DNA of 38,319 bases, from positions 1 to 38,319 of the forward strand of contig MNYJ01000053.1 in the NCBI GenBank assembly GCA_001874005.1. The letters run 5' to 3'. A model generated the notes under the pieces. It searched no databases. It saw only the letters and a list, made by a program, of their open reading frames with translations, and was not told the origin of the DNA. The stretch is from Desulfobacteraceae bacterium CG2_30_51_40 (lineage in GTDB: Bacteria; Desulfobacterota; DSM-4660; Desulfatiglandales; Desulfatiglandaceae). Shown in pieces: positions 3,880 through 35,641 of the stretch. Every line of letters begins with the position of its first letter. The first letter of the stretch is position 1. The position numbers were made by a program, and so were the translations under genes.

Positions 3880-8121
<4,242 letters not shown>

Positions 8122-8161: not shown

Positions 8162-8177
8162 AGCAACCTTTGTGCCA
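8162..8177 (-). promoter_or_regulatory. Sigma-54 (RpoN) -24/-12 promoter of amt-glnB-glnD
   Basis: On the minus strand the sequence reads TGGCAC-N5-TTGCT, with the invariant GG and GC exactly 10 bases apart, matching the RpoN consensus. The predicted start site is near 8151, leaving a leader of about 30 bases before the amt ATG. Nitrogen-assimilation operons of this type are classically driven by RpoN with the enhancer-binding protein NtrC. Confidence 0.85.
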
Positions 8178-8374: not shown

Positions 8375-10594
8375 CTAGATTTGCGCTATGGCCGGTCTTG
8401 CTATGAGCCTTCTGATCCTGGCCATGAGTCTTTTTGGATTCACAGGTTTAGTGATATAATCATCTGCCCCTGCTTCAATTCCTGCCACTTCTGAGTCAAC
8501 TTCGTCCTTGGAGGTAAGTATGATTACCGGAATATAACGGGTTGTAAGGTTGGATTTGAGTTTTTTGGTGAGAGAAATGCCATCCATGATCGGCATCATC
8601 ACGTCGGTTACTATAAGATCCGGCTTTTCCTTTACAGCGATCTTGAGGGCTTCTTCTCCGTTTACTGCCGTAAGGACAAGGTATCCCTCCGTCTCAAGTA
8701 TGTTTCTCATCAGCCTTAAGACCAGCTCACTGTCGTCTGTCACAAGTACCTTCGTAGGCCTTACAGACCCAACGGAAGGCCTTGACTCGGTCTCCGGCAA
8801 TGTCTCTTGAAGCGTTTCATCCTCCTTTGAAAAGGTCTGGGATGAAGAAAAAGGCTCCTCCTCAGGCGGGGCAACCCTAAAGACTTCTTCGATGGTAGTG
8901 ATTCCCGTGAGCGCCTTGTCTATCCCGTCGAGGCTTAGAGGTCTGTAACCCTCGCGTGCCGCGCCCTTGGCAATGGTCTGGGAGGCAACGCCGGGCACCA
9001 GAAGGTCCTTCAAGTATGTCGTCATGTTCATTATTTCATAGATTCCGATCCTTCCTGTATAACCGGTATACTGACAGGACTCGCATCCCTTTCCCTTCCA
9101 TGGAGTGATCTTTCGATCTCTGGTTATATAAGATGGAAGCTTATCTACTAATGCAGCAGCCGACGGGTCCTCGGCCTTGCAGTTTGTGCAGATCTTTCTC
9201 ACGAGACGCTGTCCTACGACTGCCAGGAGGGCGGAGGAAATCAGGAAAGGCTGGACACCCAAATCCATCAACCGTGTTACGGCTGAAGGGGCGTCATTTG
9301 TGTGAAGAGTGGACAGTACGAGGTGGCCGGTCTGTGCAGCCTGAAAAGCTATCTCGGCGGTCTCGGAGTCTCTTATCTCTCCCACCATCACTATGTCGGG
9401 GTCCTGCCTTAATATGGACCTCAGGCCTGAAGCAAAGGTAATTCCTGCCGCCGGATGAATCTGTACCTGGTTGATACCTTGAATCTCATATTCAACAGGG
9501 TCTTCCACCGTTATTATGTTTACTTCGTGGGAATTCAACTTCTTGAGGCAGGCATACAGTGTGGAGGACTTGCCGCTTCCGGTCGGCCCCGTAACTAGTA
9601 CTATGCCCTGGGGCCTGGTGATCGCGCTCAGGAGCCGACTCAGCTCCTGGGGAGAGAATCCGAGGGCATCAAGCGTCATTCCGCCGCTGTTCTGATCCAG
9701 AATTCTGATGGTCACCTTCTCGCCGTATGACGTGGGTATTGTGGAAACCCTCAGATCGTAGGCCCGTCCCTCGTACCTCACCTGAGACCTGCCGTCCTGC
9801 GGTTTTCTCCTTACCGAGATATCCATATTCGAGATGATTTTTATTCTGGACACAACCGAGGCGTGGACATGTTTGTCTGTCTCCATAACCTCCCGCATTA
9901 TTCCGTCTATGCGGTAGCGTAGGACGGTATTGTTTTTCTGCGGCTCTATATGAATATCGCTTGCCTTCAGTTTTATTGCGTCTGCCAGAACGGAGTTAGT
10001 AAAGCGCACTATCGGAGGAAGGGAAGTCATTTTCGTGAGGTCATGGATCTCCTGCTCCTCTTCCTCATGTGTTTGAATTATCTCGATCCCCTCATCCAGC
10101 CCGGGCCTCATGGCAAAATCAACTTCAAGATCGTTCTTGGGATAGTATTTGTTTATGGCCCCAAGGATATCCCCCTGGGGAGAGACAACTATGCTTATGG
10201 GCATCCTGGTTATGAACCGCAGATCATCGATCGCATAAATCTCAAGCGGATTAGCCATGGCAACAACCAGGTTCTTGTTTATCTCTCTTATCGGCATGAG
10301 AAGATAATTCTCGGCTACTTCAGCGGGAACAAGAGAGATTATCTCTTGAGGTATCTGCACGTCCTTTAGCCGGACGAAGGGTATCTTGAGTTGCTGAGCA
10401 AGGGCCTTCGCGATGTCCGCATCGGCCGCAGCGCCCATGTCAATTAGAATCTGCCCTATCCGCTTTTTTTGAACTTTCTGGATTTCAAGGGCGTTGGCAA
10501 GGGTCTTCTCATCTATCAGACCGGACTTCATAAGATAGTCTCCCAGTCTGAGCCTTCTTTTTGAAATGGTGCCGGGATTATCAGGCTTTTCCAT
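8375..10594 (-). CDS. PilB/GspE-type secretion ATPase fused to a C-terminal response-regulator receiver domain
   Basis: A 739-aa two-part protein. Residues 20-150 are a GspE/PilB N-terminal (MshEN-like) domain. Residues 190-575 are the hexameric AAA-type motor, with Walker A GPTGSGKS (336-343), Asp box ITVEDPVEY, Walker B DIVMVGEIRD (400-409), the His box TGHLVLSTLHTNDA and a zinc tetracysteine at C469, C472, C504 and C507. Such motors power type IV pilus extension or type II secretion at the inner membrane. An acidic linker (575-612) leads to a full receiver domain (614-735) with acidic pair D620/D621, phospho-acceptor D664, T694 and K716. The start is ATG 10594 with AAGGAAA upstream. No other pilus gene is adjacent. 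The receiver suggests that phosphorylation controls motor activity, which is inference. Confidence 0.92.
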   Translation of the reverse strand: MEKPDNPGTISKRRLRLGDYLMKSGLIDEKTLANALEIQKVQKKRIGQILIDMGAAADADIAKALAQQLKIPFVRLKDVQIPQEIISLVPAEVAENYLLMPIREINKNLVVAMANPLEIYAIDDLRFITRMPISIVVSPQGDILGAINKYYPKNDLEVDFAMRPGLDEGIEIIQTHEEEEQEIHDLTKMTSLPPIVRFTNSVLADAIKLKASDIHIEPQKNNTVLRYRIDGIMREVMETDKHVHASVVSRIKIISNMDISVRRKPQDGRSQVRYEGRAYDLRVSTIPTSYGEKVTIRILDQNSGGMTLDALGFSPQELSRLLSAITRPQGIVLVTGPTGSGKSSTLYACLKKLNSHEVNIITVEDPVEYEIQGINQVQIHPAAGITFASGLRSILRQDPDIVMVGEIRDSETAEIAFQAAQTGHLVLSTLHTNDAPSAVTRLMDLGVQPFLISSALLAVVGQRLVRKICTNCKAEDPSAAALVDKLPSYITRDRKITPWKGKGCESCQYTGYTGRIGIYEIMNMTTYLKDLLVPGVASQTIAKGAAREGYRPLSLDGIDKALTGITTIEEVFRVAPPEEEPFSSSQTFSKEDETLQETLPETESRPSVGSVRPTKVLVTDDSELVLRLMRNILETEGYLVLTAVNGEEALKIAVKEKPDLIVTDVMMPIMDGISLTKKLKSNLTTRYIPVIILTSKDEVDSEVAGIEAGADDYITKPVNPKRLMARIRRLIARPAIAQI

Positions 10595-34221: not shown

Positions 34222-35118
34222 TTGTCCTTTTGGAAAAGGCTCAGATTTAGGGAAAATAAGAAAGCAAGGGACTCCAGCGATTCTGTGCCTTCACCGGACC
34301 GGTCTGAACACAGGGGGATAACAGCTATGGGAAACAATGAAACCCTCGATGGGGAGAAACCAGCATCCGCAAAGGGTGGGATAAAACTTGATCTCTTAGT
34401 ACACGATCTGAAGGTTCCGCTTGCGGTGATAGAGGCCGGAGTGAGTTCGCTCCTCAAGAGACCTGAGAAATATGGAGCAATTACGGAGAGTCAGGAGAGA
34501 GTGCTCCAAAGGGTCCTTAGAAATGCGAAGATAACACAGAGTCTGGTAAACGACGTTCTTGAACTGGGAAGATCCAGAGAGGGCATTGTCAACCTTAATT
34601 GGTTCACGCTGTGTGATTTGGTTGAGGAGGCTCTTGTGGAGATATTCGATTTGACGGATTCCTCTGTCTCAGAGAGGATAAGAGGGTGCAAGGACGCCGC
34701 AATGATTCACGAAGCGGTGATCGGAGCGGGACTATCTATCTCCATTGCAAAGGAACTCTGGTCGAAAAAGGTATGCCTGGATGAGGTGAAGGTGATACAG
34801 ATACTTAGAAACCTTCTCAGCAACGCCTTCAAGTATCGCAAGAAAAAGGTCGAACTCAGCATTACTGAGGACAAGGGGTGCCTCGTGATGAGGGTCGCGG
34901 ACGACGGTGAGGGAATACCTTCGGCATATCACAGCAAGGTACTTGAGTGTTATTACCAGAAGGACCCCTCAGGCATCTGTAGCGTACGAGGACATGGTAT
35001 AGGCTTGGCCGGCGTGGTGGCTCTTTTGGAGGACATGGGAGGACGCCTCTCACTTGACAGTGAAGAGGGGAAAGGGGCCGCCTTCTCAGTCGAGTTGCCG
35101 CTAAATGCCTCTACATGA
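34222..35118 (+). CDS. Sensorless histidine kinase (HisKA-HATPase)
   Basis: A 298-aa soluble kinase with no membrane or PAS segment. Residues 1-50 are polar and probably disordered. A HisKA dimerisation domain (about 55-118) has the phospho-acceptor H61 in VHDLKVPLAVIEAG. The HATPase domain has an N box (QILRNLLSNAFKY), G1 DDGEGIP, and G2 GHGIGLAG. The TTG at 34222 has GGGGAG 7 bases upstream; ATG 34327 with AGGGGG upstream is an alternative that would still keep all domains. It converges on a response regulator with an 8-base overlap (35111-35118), so the two are presumably partners. The input signal is unknown. Confidence 0.88.
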   Translation: MSFWKRLRFRENKKARDSSDSVPSPDRSEHRGITAMGNNETLDGEKPASAKGGIKLDLLVHDLKVPLAVIEAGVSSLLKRPEKYGAITESQERVLQRVLRNAKITQSLVNDVLELGRSREGIVNLNWFTLCDLVEEALVEIFDLTDSSVSERIRGCKDAAMIHEAVIGAGLSISIAKELWSKKVCLDEVKVIQILRNLLSNAFKYRKKKVELSITEDKGCLVMRVADDGEGIPSAYHSKVLECYYQKDPSGICSVRGHGIGLAGVVALLEDMGGRLSLDSEEGKGAAFSVELPLNAST

Positions 35119-35623
35119 TTTTTGAGAGTTCGTCCTTTTCGACACGATAGTTCTTTTCGTATTCATTCCAGAAGTCCTTGTGCTTTTCCTTCCATCCGAT
35201 GCCGAACTTCTTATCGAAGAAGGGCTCGAGCTTTTCAAACCACCGGCCTTTGGGGCCCTTATCACCTATCGCAAGTACTTCCCTGAGATAACTGGCGATA
35301 TCTGCGATTTTATCCTTCGGGACGTAGGCCTGGGCTCCGCCCTTTATTGACTTTACCAGATTGTCGGGGCTAAGAGCATGTGCGGTAAGCATCAGGGCCG
35401 GTATACCACGATGGGATGCGATCTCAAGGAGGTCGTATCCTCTTACACCCATTATATCAAGTATTGCTGCATCGTATCGGTTCTTGGCGAGGAATTTCTG
35501 TGCGGTTTCAAAATCAGGGGCGGAATCAATCAGACACATACCCAGCATTTCTGCTAAGGTGTCAATGATGTCGGGCTCGTCATCAACTATAAGTACTCTC
35601 TTCCCTGCCAGATTATCTTCCAT
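35111..35623 (-). CDS. Response regulator with receiver domain and short C-terminal extension
   Basis: A 170-aa protein. The receiver has the acidic pair in IVDDEPD, phospho-acceptor Asp at about 56 in AILDIMGV, a Thr in MLTAH and Lys in VPKDK. About 50 residues follow (KGRWFEKLEPFF...FGIGWKEKHKDFWNEY) that form no DNA-binding domain I know and are rich in Trp, Phe and Lys. The ATG at 35623 is preferred because GGAGGG lies 6 bases upstream; ATG 35629 would touch that site. It is encoded tail-to-tail with the kinase at 34222, with an 8-base overlap. Its output is probably protein interaction rather than transcription, which is inference. Confidence 0.87.
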   Translation of the reverse strand: MEDNLAGKRVLIVDDEPDIIDTLAEMLGMCLIDSAPDFETAQKFLAKNRYDAAILDIMGVRGYDLLEIASHRGIPALMLTAHALSPDNLVKSIKGGAQAYVPKDKIADIASYLREVLAIGDKGPKGRWFEKLEPFFDKKFGIGWKEKHKDFWNEYEKNYRVEKDELSKIM

Positions 35624-35641
35624 ATCCATCCCTCCAAAAGG

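Follow-up and report, generated by a model that had tools for sequence, protein, structure and literature searches.

A pilus-type assembly ATPase with a built-in receiver domain and an MshEN c-di-GMP motif: a candidate two-input motor in Desulfobacteraceae

Introduction

Can a pilus-type assembly ATPase come under direct two-component control by carrying its own receiver domain? The question is raised by one gene of the window, by which we mean the whole 38,319-nucleotide stretch analysed here (contig MNYJ01000053.1, assembly GCA_001874005.1, Desulfobacteraceae bacterium CG2_30_51_40). A first-pass annotation described this gene as a PilB/GspE motor joined by an acidic linker to a receiver with all the residues needed for phosphorylation, located away from other pilus genes, and proposed that a two-component signal acts directly on the ATPase.

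Domain organization of the fused motor

The gene (positions 8375 to 10594, minus strand, as are all features of the protein given below) is a single ATG-started open frame of 739 amino acids with the domain order MshEN-T2SSE-REC. Its central part, the T2SSE assembly-motor ATPase (8876 to 10024, residues 191-573), matches Pfam PF00437 with 455.2 bits and conserves the residues expected of the superfamily, namely the Walker A lysine K342, E406 and the cysteines C469, C472, C504 and C507. The name PilB/GspE is correct at this level, but the motor scores below the NCBIfam cut-offs of both families, with 612.8 bits for the type IVa PilB equivalog (TIGR02538, cut-off 675.65) and 576.4 bits for the type II GspE equivalog (TIGR02533, cut-off 630.25). 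It is a member of the PilB/GspE superfamily (T2SSE) that belongs to neither named equivalog. For residues 14-576, Geobacter PilB chains are the nearest solved structures (E about 1e-148), and the best structural matches of the AlphaFold2 model (mean pLDDT 77.6, pTM 0.52) are PilB and GspE structures; pLDDT falls below 50 in linker residues 580-611 and is also low in the receiver stretch 702-711.

The receiver (8411 to 8749, residues 616-728) matches Pfam Response_reg PF00072 with 103.3 bits (E 1.1e-29). D620, D621, D664, T694 and K716 were all confirmed at their reported positions, so that the protein carries the signature of a phosphorylatable receiver: two acids, an acceptor aspartate, a T/S switch and a lysine. 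The linker between motor and receiver (8756 to 8866, residues 577-613) is indeed acidic by composition, with nine D/E and three K/R.

The first-pass annotation overlooked the N-terminus of the motor, where residues 16-68 (10391 to 10549) fit two 24-residue MshEN c-di-GMP-binding motifs, R16-Q39 and R45-Q68, separated by a 5-residue spacer, in a pattern match to the motif of PMC5013675. They precede an MshEN domain (10139 to 10387, residues 70-152; Pfam PF05157, 77.9 bits). The motifs are imperfect: motif I has M at one of its hydrophobic positions, and motif II has AA as well as I in place of L; judged by eye, these deviations appear to fit the relaxed MshEN motif as given in the consulted part of PMC5013675. 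The NCBIfam profile NF053729 (cut-off 38) scores 57.8 bits in the window protein and is passed by all nine fused N-termini scanned. In the other motors of the window genome, this profile rejects a TfpB-like motor, the sole other motor in that scan, and accepts a GspE with 46.1 bits. Over the 22 fused loci with an N-terminus in the aligned frame, G18 and G47 are kept in 22, Q39 in 21, Q68 and G54 in 20 and G25 in 19, and the first arginine is replaced by K in 10. Because it has an MshEN c-di-GMP motif besides the receiver, we consider the window protein a candidate two-input motor.

Distribution and conservation of the fusion

A search of genomes for T2SSE followed by REC gave 26 fused loci in 26 genomes, that is, the window locus and 25 further homologues; 21 came from genomes of the window's phylum and five were MAGs. 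The receiver site (acid-D-D-T-K) is intact in 26/26, with E as its first acid in two, and the fears that the fusion would be absent or its receiver degenerate in relatives are thus unfounded. The Walker lysine K342 and the catalytic E406 are kept in all 29 alignment rows with letters, three receiver-less motors included. The frame is unbroken from MshEN to receiver in 21 of the fused loci, the other five being cut by contig ends (L046, L047, L114) or having broken frames (L043, L117).

Within the class, the fusion occurs in at least 14 of 85 genomes, a lower bound from the best 13 candidates scored per genome. In the phylum, with the best two candidates scored per genome, at least 55 of 395 genomes matched at a looser limit, mostly with motors ending before the receiver, and the receiver was present in at least 11 of the 395 (in G154 it lies in the next frame). 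A contig profile scan found at least nine fused loci, all MAGs, titled Desulfobacteraceae, Desulfobacterales, Ca. Desulfaltia or Deltaproteobacteria; four of them are contigs already in our set, and the scan reached close relatives only, from which absence of the fusion outside the phylum does not follow.

The nearest fused relative among the matches listed is the same-genus SURF_67, with 77% identity. The comparison of both genes gave an overall pN of 0.14 and a saturated pS of 0.80; by stretch, pN was lowest of the four in the receiver (0.10), followed by the motor (0.12), MshEN (0.13) and the linker (0.30), with pS between 0.75 and 0.82, near or at saturation. The linker also has the lowest identity among the stretches measured (61%). 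Since 26 loci carry the fusion and pN against SURF_67 is low, the fusion is neither a product of chance nor a chimera.

Phylogeny of motors and receivers

In a comparison of 61 receivers, those of the 26 fused motors group as a single clade (SH-aLRT 97), in a tree of just 111 columns whose inner branching is weakly resolved. On a quick motor tree, in which L100 was still labelled as fused, the fused label needs five changes, at least two of which are forced by well-supported branches. Three motors without a receiver, L116, L098 and L099, are placed inside the fused group of the motor tree and were excluded from the fused set; they are best read as probable later losses. The motors of G159 and G085 form a separate long branch. 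A putative single origin of the fusion is supported more plainly by the receiver tree than by the motor tree.

One candidate was rejected. The 1309-aa frame on contig C188 of G159 (L100) was first taken as a fusion but comprises a motor gene and, after it, a distinct gene of REC-HATPase-REC type; neither this motor nor these receivers group with the fused ones in the trees, where they sit on long branches. Its removal reduced the 27 loci of an earlier neighbour count to the final 26.

We also observed that the receiver-less L098 and L099 adjoin a gene matching the HD_5 (HD-GYP-like) profile, as if one control arm had been lost and the c-di-GMP arm kept. At L101 and L102 (G159 and G085), a REC-HATPase kinase of another type lies upstream of the fused motor, as if the partner kinase had been exchanged in that family.

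Signalling genes near the fused motors

Neighbours were typed by Pfam on 20 neighbour proteins and then by profiles made from those domains. Within five genes of the motor, Hpt was found at 13 of the 26 fused loci (12 of these in a same-strand upstream run), a kinase (HATPase) at 12 and any two-component domain at 17; a REC-GGDEF cyclase lay in the upstream run at four. The nine loci without a two-component neighbour in this range include some that stop at contig ends. Non-fused paralogues, used as control loci, had none of these four types within five genes (0/18 each), and background regions gave Hpt in 0/25, HATPase in 3/25, GGDEF in 0/25 and any two-component gene in 7/25. Fisher's test against background gave p = 3e-5 for Hpt and p = 0.013 for HATPase, both inflated by related loci, as several fused loci are close kin with shared synteny and are not independent. 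The background consists of the first 13 kb of low-numbered contigs from eight of these genomes and is not random; 40 regions were fetched and the 25 full-length ones counted, G020 and G387 contributing none. Since 7/25 background regions hold some two-component gene, weight can be given only to the counts of Hpt, kinase and cyclase.

The longest run, in G020, comprises HTH-REC, Hpt, two hybrid kinases, REC-GGDEF, the motor, a B-box protein and a prepilin-like protein. G387 has Hpt, REC-GGDEF, motor, B-box and prepilin, and G021 has Hpt, REC-GGDEF and motor. In Yes71-19 and Ca. Desulfaltia, a HisKA-HATPase-REC-REC-Hpt kinase is located immediately upstream of the motor, and a stand-alone Hpt takes this place in L110, L111, L113, L115 and G078. 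No relay gene was scored at the motor of G036; another of its contigs (L271) carries Hpt, two kinases, REC-GGDEF and then the N-terminal part of an MshEN-T2SSE motor at the contig end. Contig ends may thus hide some linkage, and the two ends in G036 are consistent with a set like those of G020 and G387. A chemotaxis (Che) operon, considered for the long G020 neighbours, was ruled out, as Pfam identifies them as hybrid kinases, Hpt and REC-GGDEF.

A motor with two direct inputs

The domains, the residues, their conservation and the linkage in relatives point to a type IV pilus-type assembly ATPase gated directly by two inputs, a phosphorelay and c-di-GMP, a reading that we favour with moderate confidence. 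A hybrid histidine kinase would pass phosphate through an Hpt domain to D664 of the C-terminal receiver, c-di-GMP would bind the N-terminal MshEN domain, and both termini would act allosterically on the ATPase activity of the central motor, which would polymerise a pilin-like filament. The fusion fixes the ratio of receiver to motor at 1:1. Several relatives encode, as neighbours, a kinase, an Hpt, a receiver-controlled cyclase that would supply the c-di-GMP, the motor and a prepilin. The direct two-component control proposed at first remains the best reading and is partly supported, by the retention of the fusion and of the receiver residues and by the kinase and Hpt linkage in relatives, but it missed the c-di-GMP input. 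We lean towards phosphorylation activating the motor, since a cyclase controlled by that relay would drive an MshE-type motor the same way.

More tentatively, a single phosphorelay may control both ends of the motor, phosphorylating its receiver and also driving the co-encoded REC-GGDEF to make c-di-GMP for MshEN. The motor would then act as a coincidence detector and extend a dedicated filament only on the arrival of both signals. The single-run gene sets of G020 and G387 are the basis for this suggestion, and the two contig ends of G036 would fit it.

The receiver could instead be a localisation or docking module, not an ATPase switch, with phosphorylation recruiting the motor to the pole, to a kinase cluster or to a partner, as PilG does with PilB. 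The linker, which is long and of low confidence in the model, suits tethering, and, according to the consulted part of PMC10519157, PilG of Pseudomonas promotes polar recruitment of both PilB and FimX. We consider docking unlikely in view of the EmvR precedent, in which, according to the sections of PMC11973254 at hand, a receiver can directly alter the ATPase rate of PilB.

Candidate phosphodonors in the window genome

In the window genome, the candidate parts of such a circuit are scattered. Its only Hpt match is a 1523-aa CHASE-PAS-HisKA-HATPase-REC-REC-Hpt kinase on contig C22, unlinked to the motor. Co-occurrence with a specific kinase, which had been suggested as a check, is seen as kinase and Hpt linkage in relatives, but the matching kinase of the window genome stands apart from its motor.

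The C22 kinase matches the motor-linked hybrid kinase of G020 with 532 bits, the next match having 171.5. Its core is 53-54% identical to the motor-linked kinases of G008, G020, Yes71-19 and Desulfaltia, 50% to that of G078 and, over a shorter stretch, 58% to that of G059; the better of two other window-genome kinases compared reaches 35-41% with the same six. The best C22-family kinase score is higher in fused than in non-fused genomes of the class (10 vs 71, Mann-Whitney p = 1.9e-6, the four genomes used for the profile left out; within one family alone 8 vs 35, p = 7e-5), in tests that take no account of kinship, genome size or completeness and for which the class search scored the best 17 candidates per genome. 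A kinase-score threshold of 1e-219 was chosen post hoc from the table; the rank tests were not. The family is common, being found in at least 54 of the 85 class genomes at E 1e-120, with at least 17 copies in G075, and the kinases near the fused motors of G021, G037, G034, G215, G159 and G085, as well as one in G020, do not belong to it. These comparisons suggest that the C22 kinase is the likeliest phosphodonor of the motor receiver in the window genome. The cyclase of the circuit would be a REC-GGDEF protein on C141, the best window-genome match to the G020 cyclase (222 bits, the next having 123); no B-box partner was found.

It is rather improbable that the receiver is controlled by another donor, be it a hybrid kinase on C216, a 298-aa kinase of the window or small phosphodonors. 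The C216 kinase (814 aa, REC-PAS-PAS-HATPase-REC) is 57% and 62% identical to the motor-near kinases of G037 and G021 and 45% to one in G020, but it has no Hpt, and Hpt lies in the upstream run of 12 of the 26 fused loci. The 298-aa histidine kinase (34222 to 35118, plus strand) shares the motor's contig, but it is 24 kb away, is 22-37% identical to the kinases compared and has a receiver gene of its own, which encodes 172 aa (35111 to 35629, minus strand) in convergent orientation with overlapping ends.

Pilus genes around the motor and elsewhere in the genome

The isolation of the motor from pilus genes holds for the window but not for SURF_67, where a prepilin-like gene is found two genes downstream of the motor. 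In a scan of the whole window genome with PF00437 and PF00482, this contig gave the motor alone, and no pilus or secretion family appeared in 23 other window ORFs scanned with Pfam (three, then ten at E 1e-8 and ten at E 1e-5). The remaining neighbours include, by eye, what we take to be transketolase, glnD, glnB and fructose-bisphosphatase genes.

The SURF_67 motor is followed by the B-box gene, the prepilin gene (N_methyl 21.3 bits, cut-off 21.2) and then a gene matching the window's amtB; in the window, amtB directly follows the motor, and the pair is absent, with no remnant of it in the window. The simplest reading is that the pair was probably lost in the window's lineage. The window genome as a whole yielded no B-box homologue (best match at E 0.1), and its best prepilin match had E 2.7e-6 over 71 residues.

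The B-box-like protein has about 200 aa, a zinc finger whose Pfam scores fall on either side near the cut-off and what looks by eye like a single membrane helix; when solved structures were searched with its profile for a pseudopilin relationship, no match came below E 0.15. Next to it, the prepilin-like protein has about 150 aa and a prepilin-like N-terminus, with N_methyl above the cut-off in six of the seven such proteins scanned (L047, L108 barely, L104, L095, L193 and L205; L109 is below, with 12.7 bits). The pair adjoins the motor in 7 of the 26 fused loci and in 17 of the 18 non-fused paralogues. Among the fused loci, it follows on the same strand in G001, G020, G036 and G387 and is divergent in G024, G072 and G075.

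PF00437 has six matches in the window genome. Two are motors that exceed the GspE cut-off, one accompanied by a secretin and GspM and the other by a T2SSF protein; the remaining four are a TfpB-like motor next to PilY1, a motor of GAF-MshEN-T2SSE type, a PilT-like fragment and the fusion motor. Six T2SSF matches, paired on three contigs, represent three platform proteins, none on the motor's contig; the fusion motor would use one of these three. At L051 (G000 contig C58, 6423 to 10614), we observed a further motor fused to a sensor, an 817-aa GAF-MshEN-T2SSE protein whose neighbour combines caspase, PEGA and prokaryotic YEATS domains.

Least probable of the readings is that the gene is an orphan or decaying remnant that has lost its kinase linkage and its B-box/prepilin pair and no longer assembles its own filament, as the poor matches just given and the lack of both pair traces and linked relay genes in the window might suggest, but its frame is open, its catalytic and receiver residues are intact, pN is low in every domain and lowest in the receiver, and in an assembly of 229 contigs (97% complete) the absence of genes is not certain.

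Some features of the window lie apart from the motor. The window amtB is split into overlapping minus-strand frames (6900 to 7748 and 7450 to 8121), which match different parts of the ammonium transporter family; at this position SURF_67 has a single frame of 429 aa, and the split is an assembly error or a frameshift. Just before amtB, positions 8162 to 8177 (minus strand) match without mismatch what we take to be the sigma-54 consensus, of which matches with up to two mismatches number 12 in all, against 17 expected by chance. The presumed glnB- and glnD-like genes that follow this site and amtB are as expected for nitrogen control. A scan for sigma-70 promoters and terminators gave no more than chance.

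Comparison with known systems

The closest precedent is EmvR of Xanthomonas oryzae, which, according to the consulted part of PMC11973254, binds PilB and lowers its ATPase rate in a manner reported as non-competitive, with D15, D59 and T87 needed. As in our proposal, a receiver acts on the PilB motor itself; EmvR is a protein of its own with one domain, whereas the window receiver lies within the motor and is accompanied by a c-di-GMP motif. PATAN-CheY regulators such as PixE, described in the available parts of PMC7690835 and PMC10519157 as contacting PilB1 in Synechocystis, likewise bring CheY-like regulation to a pilus extension motor; they are separate proteins with PATAN, a domain that Pfam does not detect in the window protein at E 0.001. 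PilG and PilH of Pil-Chp are kinase-fed CheY-like proteins that influence PilB (parts of PMC10519157 and PMC11656802). The consulted text of a 2024 review states that no interaction of them with PilB had been reported, whereas the portion of PMC11973254 at hand says that they interact. Pil-Chp is a chemosensory, CheA-type system, and in the window protein the link between receiver and motor is covalent.

MshE and PilB motors with MshEN, as far as covered in PMC5013675, share the N-terminal motif and the ATPase core with the window protein; MshE itself has no receiver. The same source, in the part consulted, names REC, HD-GYP, CheA and others as domains that accompany MshEN, and MshEN-T2SSE-REC may therefore already be listed in its supplement (Supplementary Table 4, Fig. 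3b). Titles and abstract openings of the papers searched announce no motor-receiver fusion, and the words 'receiver' and 'fused' are absent from the consulted text of the 2024 review of PilB control.

The non-fused motors of the same order (L193-L210) have the same MshEN-T2SSE core and, in 17/18, the B-box-like and prepilin-like neighbours. They differ in a zinc-ribbon-like C-terminal tail that replaces the receiver (seen in all 15 C-termini inspected, of the 18 motors; the single tail scanned has 27.1 bits for DZR, cut-off 27.3) and in having no Hpt, kinase or receiver within five genes (0/18). This conserved cassette, which is followed by a PAS protein in 13/18, has the look of a separate pilus-type system.

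The built-in receiver offers one purified protein for the joint measurement of phosphate, c-di-GMP and ATP turnover, and the linked kinase, cyclase and prepilin genes of the relatives supply the remainder of a testable circuit. Response regulators acting on PilB in trans are already known, and the fused receiver is a new variation on such control.
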